Under the pieces are notes generated by a model. The model had not been told where the DNA came from, did not search any database, and saw only the letters and a program-made list of their open reading frames with translations. Shown here piece after piece: positions 36,271 to 42,822 of a stretch of DNA of 60,794 bases. The stretch spans positions 1-60,794 of the forward strand of contig CAIUMH010000067.1 in assembly GCA_903900235.1 (NCBI GenBank), given 5' to 3'. The first letter of the stretch is position 1, and every line of letters starts with the position of its first letter. The translations under genes were made by a program, and so were the position numbers. This stretch comes from an uncultured Actinomycetes bacterium. GTDB taxonomy: Bacteria > Actinomycetota > Acidimicrobiia > Acidimicrobiales > RAAP-2.

Positions 36271-37446
36271 TCAGGGACTCGCCGGTGGAGTGATCGACCC
36301 GTTCGGTCCGATGGTGGCCGCCGCCGATCCAAAGTCGGCGGAGGAGAGCTGGTTCATCAATGAAGCGGCCTGACCCGTCGAATCGATGGCGGGCTGACCT
36401 GTGGAGCTGAGGAGCACCGAAGTCAGCGTCCCGGAGGCGAAGACTCCGGTGGCGCTCAAGGTGACGCGCAGGATCGCGGAGATCGACATGGTCCCGACTG
36501 ATGCGAAGTTCTGGAAATTGGCAAAGTTTCCCAAGGAGTACGCGATCAGCTTGCCTTGGTACCACTCCATCCCGCGCACCACATGTGGTCCCGATCCGAT
36601 CACCAGATCGGCCCCCGCATCGACGGCCGCATGCGCAAATGCTTTGGAGTTCCCGCGATTCTCGCCGAAGTAGGTCTCCTCCTGACCCGTCACGTGCGTC
36701 GCCGTCGATCCCTCCGCACCCGCGTGCATGTAGACGACAACCAAAGGAGCCAAGGTCTTGGCCTTGGTGATCAAGTCCTTGGCGGTGGCCAGATCGAGGA
36801 GGTTGTTGACGTTCGAGTACGGAGCGAAGCCGATTGTGGCGACCTTGGTTCCATGATCGTCGTTGACCGCGATCTGGCCAGGCAGTCCGGTCTGCTTTAT
36901 CGACGCCCCATTCAGGGCCGCAGAGGTATCGGATACCCCCTGTTCACCGAAGTCGTGGCTGTGGTTGTTGGCGCTGTTGACGACATTGAATCCGGCATCA
37001 GCCATGACGTTGGCATAGGACGGCGGCACGCTGAAGGCATAACAATTCGTCGATCCGGAAGCACACTTGCTCGATGAACCGGTGGTCATTGTGCCCTCAA
37101 GGTTGGCAAAGACGATCGGTGCCTTCAACGCCGACACCACCGGCGCCAAGATGGCCGCCGGATTTGCTGGGAGGTTGGGGGAATTGCCAAGCTCAGTGTC
37201 TCCAACGGCCACGAAGGTGGCCGGCCCGAGCTTGGTTGTGGTGGTGGTTACCGACTTGAGTGTCGTCGCCGGCGAGACGGAGCCACCCTTCGATCCACCT
37301 CCGCCGACCAGCGAGATGGCGGAGACCGCAAGCCCAACGACCAACAACAGCCCGAGAAGACCGGCAGCAATTCGGCGTCGTCGGTAGACGGCAGCGCTCG
37401 GGCGTAGCCGGTGGTTGGCCCTCGGCGGTCGGTAGGCGTTCACCAT
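36271..37446 (-). CDS. CapA-family (poly-gamma-glutamate capsule-type) metallophosphoesterase-like protein
   Basis: The 391-residue protein has a basic N-terminus with RPSAAVYRRRR, a membrane span (about 27-45), a Thr-rich linker, and a CapA-type calcineurin-like domain. Motifs are FVAVGDTELGN (77-88), FANLEGTM (113-120), NSANNHSHDFGEQG (157-170) and YMHAGAEG. CapA proteins act in poly-gamma-glutamate or related polymer export, but many members have other roles. Its ATG at 37446 overlaps the glycosidase stop by 7 bp; the longer frame to 37599 is rejected. It ends 3 bp from the convergent gene at 36267. Confidence 0.86.
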   Translation of the reverse strand: MVNAYRPPRANHRLRPSAAVYRRRRIAAGLLGLLLVVGLAVSAISLVGGGGSKGGSVSPATTLKSVTTTTTKLGPATFVAVGDTELGNSPNLPANPAAILAPVVSALKAPIVFANLEGTMTTGSSSKCASGSTNCYAFSVPPSYANVMADAGFNVVNSANNHSHDFGEQGVSDTSAALNGASIKQTGLPGQIAVNDDHGTKVATIGFAPYSNVNNLLDLATAKDLITKAKTLAPLVVVYMHAGAEGSTATHVTGQEETYFGENRGNSKAFAHAAVDAGADLVIGSGPHVVRGMEWYQGKLIAYSLGNFANFQNFASVGTMSISAILRVTLSATGVFASGTLTSVLLSSTGQPAIDSTGQAASLMNQLSSADFGSAAATIGPNGSITPPASP

Positions 37447-38507
37447 GGCTGAGCGATGGTGCCTGGCGTCTTGAGGTAGACGGCGAAGAAGTCCTTGGTG
37501 CTCGAGGAGAGGAATCGCCACGGCACCTGCTGGGAGTTGGGCACAAAGAGCGCTGGATCTGCCGCGTTCGGCCCGCCATAGGTCACGAAGATCGGCCACG
37601 CAGGATTGATGTCGAGTTGCATCGCCCGGACACAGCCGAGATGAAGGAAGATCTGCGCCAGACTCTGAGAGGTCTGTGAAGCGGCCGTTGCATAGATCAA
37701 ATCTCCATGGGCATCGATGCCGATGCCAGTGCGCCAGACTGCCGGCACGCCACCGAGGGTGATCCCGTAGGCACCGTTGTTGGCCGCCTCTGGAGTCGCC
37801 TGGCCATCATTGACCAGCAACGCCAGGTTCTGACGCGCCATCACCACGTTCGGCCCAGGCGTCGAACCTCCCTGCCAGTCGACCACGTCCACTGATCCAT
37901 CGACATACCGAACCAGGGTGGCGTGGCCCTTGACCAGGGGGAAGTACGTCGTGGCATTGGTGTAGAAGCCCTCCGCCGAGTCCGCCTCATAGAAACCGGA
38001 GTTGAAGGTAGCCAACAGCTTGTCTCGACCAGCAGAGGGGACCTGCTCGGGTCCACGGTCCAACGAGGTAGCACCGGGGCCCTGGTAGCCAAGGAAGAGG
38101 GCCAGCTGCGTTGTTGCGGTGCGGATCCACGATGCGTACGCCACTACTGACGAATTAGCGGGATCCGGCCGGAACGTCGTGGTCATCACCGACGGAGGAC
38201 CTGAGCTCCACGAGTCCATCGGCGTCCATTGACCCTCACCCGCTTGGGCAGGTTCCACCACCGGTGCCACCGGGGCCGGAAGGTACGCAGGTGCCGTCGT
38301 CGTCGTAGTCCTCGGAGAAAGCGGCGTCGTGGTCGCTGGGGGAGTTGTTGGACCGCCCGAGAACCAAGCCAGGCCCACCACGGCGATGCCGACCACTCCA
38401 AGCAGCGGAAGGAGGCGCTGGCGACGCTTTCGTCGCATGGCTTCCTGGCGAGCGGCGATCTTGGCTTCTTGGCGAGATCGCTGTCCCTCCGGTCGTGTCA
38501 TCGACAT
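37440..38507 (-). CDS. Phosphodiester glycosidase-family protein (NAGPA-like), membrane anchored
   Basis: The 355-residue protein has a basic start with RRQRLLPLLG (28-37), a membrane span, a Thr/Pro-rich linker, and a domain of the phosphodiester glycosidase (DUF2233/NAGPA) family. Typical segments are FNSGFYEADSAEGFYTN, VVMARQNLALLVNDG and WRTGIGIDAHGDLIYAT. In animals this fold removes N-acetylglucosamine from phosphodiesters; bacterial members probably act on exopolysaccharide or teichoic-type linkages. It precedes capA with a 7 bp overlap, so the two are an operon. Confidence 0.85.
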   Translation of the reverse strand: MSMTRPEGQRSRQEAKIAARQEAMRRKRRQRLLPLLGVVGIAVVGLAWFSGGPTTPPATTTPLSPRTTTTTAPAYLPAPVAPVVEPAQAGEGQWTPMDSWSSGPPSVMTTTFRPDPANSSVVAYASWIRTATTQLALFLGYQGPGATSLDRGPEQVPSAGRDKLLATFNSGFYEADSAEGFYTNATTYFPLVKGHATLVRYVDGSVDVVDWQGGSTPGPNVVMARQNLALLVNDGQATPEAANNGAYGITLGGVPAVWRTGIGIDAHGDLIYATAASQTSQSLAQIFLHLGCVRAMQLDINPAWPIFVTYGGPNAADPALFVPNSQQVPWRFLSSSTKDFFAVYLKTPGTIAQPW

Positions 38508-38589: not shown

Positions 38590-39108
38590 GTGCGTGCAAT
38601 TGGCGGCGTCGCTCTCGGCGCACTTCTCGTGATGGCAGGCTGCTCCTCAAGTCCCTCAACGCCAGCCAGTCTTCAACCTCCCGGCGCGACGCCGAAGGCC
38701 AGCACCAAGATGGTCTGCGCCGCCGAGGAGCAACGCAATATCGCCGTCTACCTCGGCGAGAGAGCTCGAGTCTCGAAACCGTCCTGGGTCAACGACACAT
38801 ACCGGTGCAACTACCAATATCCAGAGGGAACGGTACGTCTCGCGATCAAGGAGCTCGGATCATGGAGCTCAACAAAGCGCTACTTCAACGACTCAGTGAG
38901 GGCCGCCGGACCTACCACTCAAGTGCACAATATGGGTCAACAAGCAGCTCAGGCCGAGGATGGGACGGTCTTCGTTCGCAAGGACTTCTCGGTGCTGACC
39001 GTTGACGTTACCGGTGTAACCGCGCAGCTTGGTCGGCCGCCGACTGCCGCTGCTGACATCGCCTACACCTTCGCCGACCTGATTATGGCCTGTTGGACGG
39101 GCGAATAG
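38590..39108 (+). CDS. Predicted lipoprotein, unknown
   Basis: From the GTG at 38590 the protein has 172 residues with a short signal and the lipobox LLVMAGC, placing lipidated Cys18 at the mature N-terminus. A Ser/Thr/Pro-rich stretch is followed by a mixed domain containing two further cysteines (YRCNYQYPEG and MACWTGE), which could form a disulfide. It is divergent from the glycosidase gene. No family recognised. Confidence 0.8.
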   Translation: MRAIGGVALGALLVMAGCSSSPSTPASLQPPGATPKASTKMVCAAEEQRNIAVYLGERARVSKPSWVNDTYRCNYQYPEGTVRLAIKELGSWSSTKRYFNDSVRAAGPTTQVHNMGQQAAQAEDGTVFVRKDFSVLTVDVTGVTAQLGRPPTAAADIAYTFADLIMACWTGE

Positions 39109-39129: not shown

Positions 39130-40245
39130 TCAGGCGTTGGCTGGCTTCTTCGGAACGGTCATGATGAGTCCGAGGCACATCTCGTCCGAGGAGCCATCGC
39201 CCCACGTGATGAAACGAGGCGCCTGACTCCGCAGCTGCGGAAGCTTCTGGCGAAGCGTCGGGTCATAGGTGCACGTGAGCTTGATGGTGTCGCCGGAATT
39301 GATCTTGACCGGGTGCTTCAACGCGATCGCCTTCTGATCGTCAAAGTTGTAGTTGGCGTCGTCCAATATCGTCGTCTCATCCGGAGTTCCGGGGTTGAGG
39401 ACCATGCTGAGTGCGTGACCCGTCAGGTGCATGTGCGGAGCCACCCGGACGATCCAGCCCGCCTGGCGAGGCTTCCAGGTGCAGGTGGTGGTCACACCCG
39501 AAGGCGGGTTCCCACAGATGGCCTGGATCGCACTATCGAACATGGCGGCGGATGGACCAAATCGCTTGCTCAGATCAGCCAACGAGGCCGCCCGATCACA
39601 GAGCGGACCGGTCACGCCTGTCGGGCAGGGGACATTCGGTGGGGCCACGTATTGGCCAAGGGTCTCCGGCTGGATCGCCTTGGTGACCGGGACGGTATTG
39701 AGGTGCAGTGAGCTCGTCACCGGCTTATCACCACGAAGCATGTTGTAGTGGACCTGCATCACGACCATGGAGCCAGCCGGCAGTAAGGTCCCCGCTCCCT
39801 TGGTGTGGACATCTTTGCCATGCCCCGGCGCCCATGCGGTCAACCAGGGAGTCTGTCCCAACTGGGCAAGACCAGAACCGGGCAACGCTGTCTCGCCGAA
39901 GCAGGTCCAACCCTTCCCGCCAACATTGGCCTTCTTCGCCGCAGCCACCATATTGGGAGGGATCAAGAACAAGATGGCGTGATGGACCTCAGGGCTGTTC
40001 GGGAAGAACTGCGCCGAGACGATGTAGGACGAGGTCTTGATGTTGGGGTTCACCAACGAGCAGTGGTAATCATCCGTTCCACCGTTCGGAGCCACAGGCG
40101 TGTAGGGCTTCGCCTGCTTGAGGGTGTGGGTGGTCACCTTGGGCGCAGTGGTTGCACCACTCGCCTCCGGAAGTGTGACGGCCAGGGAGGGGAGGAGGAC
40201 TCCAAATCCCAAAGCGAGGGTTGCAAGACGTCGACGAATACGCAT
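39130..40245 (-). CDS. PHM-like copper type II ascorbate-dependent monooxygenase-fold protein
   Basis: The 371-residue protein has a signal peptide (to about residue 30) and the copper ligand pattern of peptidylglycine alpha-hydroxylating monooxygenase: His88-His89 (EVHHAIL), His166 (MQVHYN), His271/His273 (APHMHLTGH) and Met356 (SDEMCLG). These correspond to the two copper sites used to hydroxylate C-H bonds with ascorbate as reductant. Six or more cysteines could form disulfides. It is likely secreted and copper-loaded. It follows the SCO1 gene by 23 bp. The substrate is unknown. Confidence 0.85.
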   Translation of the reverse strand: MRIRRRLATLALGFGVLLPSLAVTLPEASGATTAPKVTTHTLKQAKPYTPVAPNGGTDDYHCSLVNPNIKTSSYIVSAQFFPNSPEVHHAILFLIPPNMVAAAKKANVGGKGWTCFGETALPGSGLAQLGQTPWLTAWAPGHGKDVHTKGAGTLLPAGSMVVMQVHYNMLRGDKPVTSSLHLNTVPVTKAIQPETLGQYVAPPNVPCPTGVTGPLCDRAASLADLSKRFGPSAAMFDSAIQAICGNPPSGVTTTCTWKPRQAGWIVRVAPHMHLTGHALSMVLNPGTPDETTILDDANYNFDDQKAIALKHPVKINSGDTIKLTCTYDPTLRQKLPQLRSQAPRFITWGDGSSDEMCLGLIMTVPKKPANA

Positions 40246-40268
40246 ACTTTTACCTTACTCAAGTCGGA

Positions 40269-41033
40269 CTACTTGATGGGTGCCACCGGTATCTCGGTAC
40301 CCGTCACCCAACTCAGCGCCGCCAGTGCACCGGGAGGCCGCCAGCCACGAGGATCAGGCTTCACGAGAGCGTTCAGTCCCTCTCGAGAGAGGAAGGCCCG
40401 AAGCTTGGCTGGAAGGATGCCATGGAAGTGCGGTGTGGCCGCGTTCACGAAGCGGACCGTGCCGTTCGTGTCGATGATGACGTAGCCGTCCGAGTGAGCC
40501 ACGTCGTAGGTGGTTGGCAATCTCGTCAGTGGGTCGATCACCTTGGAGTGAGCCAACGGGCGCGTGATGGCGGTGTAGCCGAAGTACTTGAACATGGCTG
40601 CCGTCCCGGCCTTGTCGCTCCGGGCGAGGGTCCAGGTGATGCCGTTGGACCGGGCGTATGCAGCCAGACGACGGACGCTGTCGCGGCCAGGATCCACTGT
40701 GAACTCGATGATTCGCGTCTGACCCGCTTGCTTGGCTGCGTCCAGTGACGCTTGGACCTGGGCCAAGTTTCCTGTCGTGAATGGACACACGTCGGCACAG
40801 AGGGTGAGGAATGGGCTGATGAAGACGTTCTTGCCAGCCAGAGAACCAAGCGTGAATCGCTTTCCCTTCTGATCCACGAGGACCGCTCGCTTCACCGCAG
40901 GCGACAACTGGCGATTGACCACGTGCCCATCGGAAGATGGTGGTGCAACGGGGCCATTCGCACAGGCGGTAAGCATGATCGAGGCTGTCATCGCCGCGGC
41001 CAAACCCCACACCCTCCGAGCGTTTGGGACCAT
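40269..41033 (-). CDS. SCO1/SenC-type copper chaperone lipoprotein
   Basis: The 254-residue protein starts with a lipoprotein signal ending in LTAC (Cys24). The thioredoxin-like SCO domain has the copper-binding pair Cys79 and Cys83 (CADVCP) and the partner His180 (VAHSDGYVIIDTNG). SCO1 proteins deliver copper to enzymes such as cytochrome oxidase. Here it precedes the copper monooxygenase by 23 bp on the same strand, so it may supply that enzyme. No cytochrome oxidase gene is in the window. Confidence 0.92.
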   Translation of the reverse strand: MVPNARRVWGLAAAMTASIMLTACANGPVAPPSSDGHVVNRQLSPAVKRAVLVDQKGKRFTLGSLAGKNVFISPFLTLCADVCPFTTGNLAQVQASLDAAKQAGQTRIIEFTVDPGRDSVRRLAAYARSNGITWTLARSDKAGTAAMFKYFGYTAITRPLAHSKVIDPLTRLPTTYDVAHSDGYVIIDTNGTVRFVNAATPHFHGILPAKLRAFLSREGLNALVKPDPRGWRPPGALAALSWVTGTEIPVAPIK

Positions 41034-41967: not shown

Positions 41968-42822
41968 GTGACGTCGACGCCCGCTCAACGCCCACGTGTC
42001 TTGAGCAGCACGGCCGGCCTGCTCCGAGCGAGCCACCTGCCACCGACTATGGCCGTCGTGGCGCTCACGACCGGCCTCGCCGCTCTCAATGGACGCGCCG
42101 TGATTGGATGTATCGCTGTCGCAGTCGCCGTCTTGTCGGGTCAGCTCTCGACGGGTTGGAGTAACGACTGGATCGACGCCGAGCGTGATCGATCTGTCGG
42201 ACGGACCGACAAGCCGATCGCCGCAGGCCTTGTGACGGTCTCGACCGTTCGCACTGCATCATTCCTGGCGCTCGTGGCTTGCGTGCCGCTCTCGCTGCTC
42301 TCAGGCTGGCGAGCCACCGCAGTGCACCTCGTGGCGATCGGATCGGCCTGGGCGTACAACGCAGGGCTCAAAGGCACGATCCTGAGCCCACTCCCCTATG
42401 GGCTGTCGTTCGCCCTGCTCCCGGCCTTTGTCACTCTGGCTCCACCGACCCAGGCCTGGCCTCGCCCCGGCCTGATGGCGGCTGCATGCCTCCTCGGCGT
42501 CGGTGCACACTTCATCAACACGCTTGCTGACCGTGATGACGATCACGCCACCGGCGTCCGGGGACTCCCCCAGCGGATGCCCTCCACTTCGGTGATCATC
42601 GTCGGAGTCGGGCTGCTTGGCGGTTGCGCAGCAGCAATCTGGACCCTCGGTGGATCCTCTCGCTCATGGAGCGGGTTGCTCTTCGTCGGATGCCTGATAA
42701 CTGACCTTGGTGTCGTGGGAACCGCAATCGCAGGACGGCCCCGGCTGGCCTGGATTCTCACGCTCGTCTCCGTCGTTGGCTGCCTCGGCCTCTTCGGTGC
42801 CTTGAGGCCCTCGCTCATCTAA
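41968..42822 (+). CDS. UbiA-family prenyltransferase
   Basis: The 284-residue membrane protein has about eight spans and the first Asp-rich motif NDWIDAERDRSVGRTDKPI, which binds prenyl diphosphate through magnesium. The second motif is NTLADRDDD. Such enzymes attach prenyl chains to aromatic acceptors in quinone, heme or lipid pathways. The acceptor is unknown; it does not look like MenA or CtaB closely enough to name. GTG start, with GATGGAG upstream. Confidence 0.87.
   Translation: MTSTPAQRPRVLSSTAGLLRASHLPPTMAVVALTTGLAALNGRAVIGCIAVAVAVLSGQLSTGWSNDWIDAERDRSVGRTDKPIAAGLVTVSTVRTASFLALVACVPLSLLSGWRATAVHLVAIGSAWAYNAGLKGTILSPLPYGLSFALLPAFVTLAPPTQAWPRPGLMAAACLLGVGAHFINTLADRDDDHATGVRGLPQRMPSTSVIIVGVGLLGGCAAAIWTLGGSSRSWSGLLFVGCLITDLGVVGTAIAGRPRLAWILTLVSVVGCLGLFGALRPSLI

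Follow-up and report, generated by a model that had tools for sequence, protein, structure and literature searches.

A candidate exported copper monooxygenase of the PHM/DBH type next to a genus-level SCO paralogue in an uncultured actinobacterium

The SCO gene and the monooxygenase gene

The window, the whole stretch of 60,794 nucleotides analyzed here (contig C67), carries two adjacent genes on the minus strand, arranged as an earlier note on this DNA had described. The upstream gene (40269..41033, minus strand) encodes an SCO1/SenC-type lipoprotein of 254 residues, hereafter SCO. The protein matches Pfam family PF02630 (E = 4e-17, 62.9 bits, above the cut-off of 22.8) as well as Sco (YpmQ) of Bacillus subtilis (7e-7), and inspection by eye locates a lipobox, LTAC, at Cys24. 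The Cys79-x3-Cys83 motif is encoded at 40785..40799 (minus strand), CxxxCP recurs in most sequences of the SCO set, and His180 (40494..40496, minus strand) belongs to a motif, DVAHSDGY, that is also seen in close relatives. The assignment as an SCO1-type lipoprotein with CxxxC and His is thus confirmed, and the protein shares with B. subtilis Sco (PDB 1XZO, 1ON4) its thioredoxin-like character, the CxxxC and His residues, and the lipid anchor.

The second gene (39130..40245, minus strand) encodes a secreted protein of 371 residues that resembles the dicopper monooxygenases of the PHM/DBM type by Pfam, PDB profile and structural model, hereafter MO. SCO lies 23 bp upstream of MO on the same strand, and the intergenic gap (40246..40268, minus strand) contains a AAGGTAAA stretch ahead of the ATG of MO. 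The region of the pair shows no terminator-like site and a single promoter-like match, which is at chance level. As judged from the sequence, the two genes are probably part of one transcript.

Convergent to MO is a gene for a small lipoprotein, LP172 (38590..39108, plus strand), with no Pfam match at E 0.1. Genes for PGA_cap and NAGPA (phosphodiester glycosidase) proteins adjoin at 36271-38507 on the minus strand, and their order is kept in the congener G003 (L060:3713-5955). A functional link to the UbiA gene (41968-42822) was weighed and discarded; the same congener stretch (L060) shows no match to it.

Fold and copper ligands of the monooxygenase

A Sec-type signal peptide was placed by eye, approximately, at 40156..40245 (minus strand); in the AlphaFold model, residues 1-25 have a pLDDT below 50. 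The C-terminal domain of MO is recognized as PF03712 (Cu2_monoox_C; E = 1.6e-8, 34.6 bits, above the cut-off of 23), while the N-terminal domain gives a sub-threshold match to PF01082 (E = 0.0018, 18.9 bits against a cut-off of 30). A search of the PDB with a profile of 37 MO relatives returned DBH as the best match (7.7e-9) and PHM with 5e-6.

The AlphaFold model, a protein chain without metals, has a pLDDT of 86.4 and shows two jelly-roll domains in the PHM arrangement (residues 36-368, about 260 aligned). It superposes on PHM (6ala_A) with a Z-score of 23.3 (258 aligned residues, rmsd 2.8 Å) and on DBH (4zel_A) with 22.6 (264 aligned residues, rmsd 2.8 Å); the next unrelated fold, PNGase, scores 9.2. 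The modeled fold is therefore in agreement with the likeness to PHM that had been proposed from the sequence.

The putative copper ligands were examined in an alignment of 37 homologues, which includes the window protein and 36 others that are 27-83% identical to it. The CuH site would be formed by His88-His89 (39979..39984, minus strand; PHM H107, H108) and His166 (39748..39750, minus strand; PHM H172), the latter in a Q-x-H motif with the invariant Gln164 (PHM Q170). The CuM site would comprise His271-x-His273 (39427..39435, minus strand; PHM H242, H244) and Met356 (39178..39180, minus strand; PHM M314), whose surroundings align with the SSDEMC segment of PHM, so that both proteins have a Cys next to the ligand Met in a DEMC motif. 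All six ligands are exactly where the earlier note had placed them and are kept in 37 of 37 sequences, which argues against a chance match. Tyr60 (PHM Y79), Gln164, Gln304 (aligned near PHM Q272), DEMC, and eight cysteines are invariant as well. Fold, ligands, and conserved second-shell residues support the assignment of MO as a predicted exported dicopper monooxygenase of the PHM type.

MO has in common with PHM (PDB 1PHM, 1OPM, 1SDW, 6ALA) the double jelly-roll, the six ligands, and the equivalents of Q170 and Y79. In contrast to PHM, with which it shares about 20% identity, it is bacterial and exported, has several paralogues per genome, and lacks three residues of the PHM substrate site. 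These are R240, N316, and Y318, the PHM anchors of the peptide carboxylate; the equivalent positions 269, 358, and 360 are never R, N, and Y, respectively, in the 37 MO sequences. Because the anchors are absent from the entire alignment, peptidylglycine is an unlikely substrate, and we file MO in the type II copper monooxygenase superfamily (PHM/DBH/TBH) and not as PHM proper. DBH (PDB 4ZEL) has the same fold and is the best sequence-profile match, but no DOMON domain is seen in the 371 residues of MO.

Paralogues and distribution

The window genome (G000) contains five MO-type genes on five contigs. All five can be matched one-to-one with orthologues in the congener G003 (74-83% identity) and are therefore old paralogues. 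One is located between gyrB and recF (names by eye; L012:6995-8116, contig C38), close to dnaN and dnaA, and the gyrB-MO-recF order near dnaN and dnaA is kept in G003 (L078:6035-7198, contig C18).

A single pattern scan recovered at least 578 homologues, with members in the Acidimicrobiales, freshwater actinobacteria, Actinoplanes, Nocardioides, Nonomuraea, and others. MO is thus a member of a widespread, little-studied bacterial family. In freshwater actinobacteria (L172, with similar loci in L151-L183), MO is frequently arranged back to back with a divergent gene that looks like a fused alpha/beta hydrolase-ABC ATPase, and a permease gene comes after the latter.

Adjacency and co-occurrence of SCO and MO

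Only two of 109 distinct MO loci have an SCO gene at a distance of 3 kb or less; the 109 count two pieces of a single broken gene (L052) and come mostly from MAGs, whose short contigs can hide neighbors. The two loci are the window and contig C5 of G003, where order and spacing of the pair are as in the window. On contig C201 of genome G001, the MO orthologue has the same flanking genes with no SCO between crotonase and MO. Within the window genome, SCO is near one of the five MO paralogues and the other four have no SCO nearby.

LP172 is a better conserved neighbor of the close MO relatives than SCO. With the same 3-kb limit it accompanies 13 MO entries (12 loci), compared with two for SCO. 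The lipoprotein gene is convergent to the MO relatives in about 12 loci, namely the window and L046, L052, L060, L061, L064, L122, L123, L125, L127, L135, and L137.

We also compared the presence of the two genes across 248 genomes of the order, each at least 90% complete. Both are present in 31, MO only in 36, SCO only in 92, and neither in 89, which corresponds to an odds ratio of 0.83 (p = 0.57, with genomes that are not independent samples). A sample of the family gave a similar picture (both 9, MO only 6, this SCO type only 10, neither 12; p = 0.51). The strong co-occurrence seen in 24 genomes of the same order, where all five with MO have a strong SCO match, is gone in the set of 248. 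One genome, G034, has five MO genes against a single SCO, found in a long frame of about 670 residues that resembles the oxidase-linked SCO fusions.

The SCO profile cross-reacts weakly with other thioredoxin-like proteins when applied to the loci and therefore errs toward too many SCO genes rather than too few. Three weak SCO-like matches near fused MO genes were rejected by eye as CcmG/TlpA-type thioredoxins of an apparent cytochrome c maturation operon (L203, L212) or a peroxiredoxin (L207), and an SCO match in L177, 5.4 kb from MO, falls outside the 3-kb test.

SCO appears dispensable for the MO family, given that in 36 genomes of the order MO is present and no SCO was detected. The earlier note had suggested a dedicated metallation pair and had named two observations that would speak against it: homologues that are not adjacent elsewhere, or ligands that vary among relatives. 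The ligands do not vary, but the dedicated pair largely fails in the comparison: the genes are neighbors in the window and one congener only, their presence is uncorrelated across the order, and four sister paralogues do without a nearby SCO. The pairing is local to one genus and does not amount to a system of general use.

The cytochrome oxidase and the origin of the window SCO

SCO genes are usually, although not obligatorily, found beside haem-copper oxidase genes. The window SCO is not, as the sole COX1 gene of the genome is on another contig (C133:38317-39633). The previous statement that cytochrome oxidase is not here is thus correct for the gene neighborhood and incorrect for the genome. 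The COX1 cluster (L014:1551-9273, on C133) encodes a 588-residue protein with a C-terminal SCO domain and contains a Caa3_CtaG gene, both within 8 kb of COX1. The oxidase has an SCO-domain fusion and CtaG of its own, and the window SCO does not follow the oxidase genes, in contrast to typical SCO1/SenC proteins. Long SCO frames of about 600 residues are common in the family of the window genome.

The genome has a second stand-alone SCO, on contig C134. The SCO tree joins the copies of the window and G003 in a single clade (100/100), whose stem is long (0.71) and which branches inside the group of the C134 copy and its counterpart in G001 (copies C134 and C140). From this position, the window SCO is best described as a fast-diverging paralogue of the other stand-alone SCO of the genome. 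The tree is most simply explained if the gene was duplicated inside the genus or shortly before it arose, and the copy ended up upstream of this MO. No second SCO of this type was found in G003, perhaps owing to genome incompleteness.

Both genes are under purifying selection, with dN/dS values of about 0.11 for MO and 0.17 for SCO at a dS near saturation. Since two species keep the pair in order and spacing and SCO is constrained, the two genes may well be functionally linked in this local setting. SCO could plausibly act as a local helper in these two species, whereas the idea of a dedicated pair is not plausible for a general system.

No PCuAC chaperone gene (PF04314) was found in the window genome, and a stand-alone SCO might therefore be its main periplasmic copper carrier. 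In two relatives (L113:6014-7360, L117:5331-7368), stand-alone SCO genes adjoin PCuAC genes (PF04314).

Fusions to cytochrome c and YceI

In seven order-level relatives, the MO domain is preceded by a CxxCH haem motif together with an MPPW Met motif; six of the seven also have an N-terminal YceI domain. Among 20 further loci, drawn from 12 families, CxxCH precedes the MO domain or sits at its beginning in 14, and YceI is present in eight. These fusions, from other Acidimicrobiales families, contain a homologous domain with the six ligands; unlike the stand-alone window protein, they carry a haem c (CxxCH, MPPW) and in many cases YceI. Since the MO domain of these relatives is fused to a c-type cytochrome, we suggest that cytochrome c, instead of ascorbate, may be the electron donor of MO-type enzymes.

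Fusions of YceI and MO, about 700-990 residues long and nearly all with CxxCH in between, were seen in order relatives (L053-L058) and in L203, L207, L209, L211, L212, L214, L216, and L219. CxxCH without YceI occurs in L059, L201, L202, L206, L208, L210, L215, and L217. In two loci (L203:386-6862, L212:3-5680), the cytochrome c-MO fusion gene is directly 3' of ccmF-ccmG-ccmH-ccmI (names by eye).

YceI proteins bind isoprenoid chains, and a hydrophobic substrate is therefore possible for these enzymes.

Discussion

In a 2020 review of cuproproteins, PHM and DBM appear in the eukaryote column only (Table 3; PMC7435645), and a structural study from 2022 describes PHM as widespread in eukaryotes (PMC8812541). 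In the open-access literature we came across no work on PHM-like enzymes of bacteria, a weak sign of absence given that subscription papers lie mostly outside it.

We consider it probable that MO is an exported enzyme of the PHM/DBH/TBH type with a substrate other than peptidylglycine, and that SCO is a genus-level duplicate that serves, at most, as an optional local helper. Two mononuclear coppers would be bound, one at CuH by three His and one at CuM by two His and one Met. By analogy to PHM and DBH, CuH would accept electrons, which the fused relatives suggest may come from cytochrome c, and pass them to CuM. There, O2 would be activated and a C-H bond of the substrate hydroxylated outside the cytoplasm. 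The exported C-H hydroxylase put forward earlier is supported insofar as the protein is, by fold and ligands, an exported dicopper monooxygenase of the PHM type; hydroxylation itself is predicted from this likeness. A duplicate of the stand-alone SCO would have come to lie upstream of one MO paralogue, where it may deliver copper or reduce thiols for MO in two species. It would not be a required metallochaperone, as MO relatives appear to obtain copper with no neighboring SCO and often with no detectable SCO at all.

The main competing view of SCO, which we regard as credible but clearly short of even chances, is that of a general or oxidase-assembly chaperone that lies beside MO by chance. 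It would fit the many gene contexts of the SCO relatives in the family, including those next to PCuAC, and their presence in genomes without MO. However, the oxidase has its own SCO domain and CtaG, and a second stand-alone SCO is encoded on C134, so that there is no obvious need for a third general copy. A dedicated role of this SCO paralogue in supplying copper to this one MO paralogue is unlikely. The shared strand, the 23-bp gap kept in two species, the long branch expected of a specialized copy, and dN/dS values well below 1 for both genes would agree with such a role, but adjacency in 2 of 109 loci, the lack of phyletic association, the four sister paralogues with no SCO nearby, and the 36 genomes with MO and no detected SCO argue against it. 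A more far-reaching version joins several of these elements: a large actinobacterial family of exported PHM-type dicopper C-H hydroxylases would be driven by c-type cytochromes in place of ascorbate and act on a hydrophobic, isoprenoid-like substrate carried by YceI, with the SCO duplicate as dedicated loader of one paralogue in one genus. Taken as a whole, we hold this combination to be quite improbable.

As for MO itself, a non-catalytic jelly-roll protein that binds copper, for instance for storage or delivery, is slightly less probable still. The five paralogues would fit such a role, and the enzymatic activity of MO is a prediction; yet all ligands of CuH and CuM are invariant, as are the residues that correspond to Y79 and Q170, and the same domain is fused to c-type cytochromes. 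Least probable is a true peptidylglycine alpha-hydroxylating monooxygenase that makes amidated peptides. Fold, copper ligands, and the DEMC motif are all common to PHM, but the R240, N316, and Y318 anchors are replaced in all 37 relatives. We therefore retain the reading of an exported PHM/DBH/TBH-type enzyme with an optional SCO helper.

The chaperone pairing itself matters less than first proposed. Of wider significance is a bacterial family of at least 578 homologues, with up to five per genome, in 37 members of which the complete PHM-type copper site set is invariant. Its natural fusions to haem c make the electron route to separate copper sites directly testable in bacteria.
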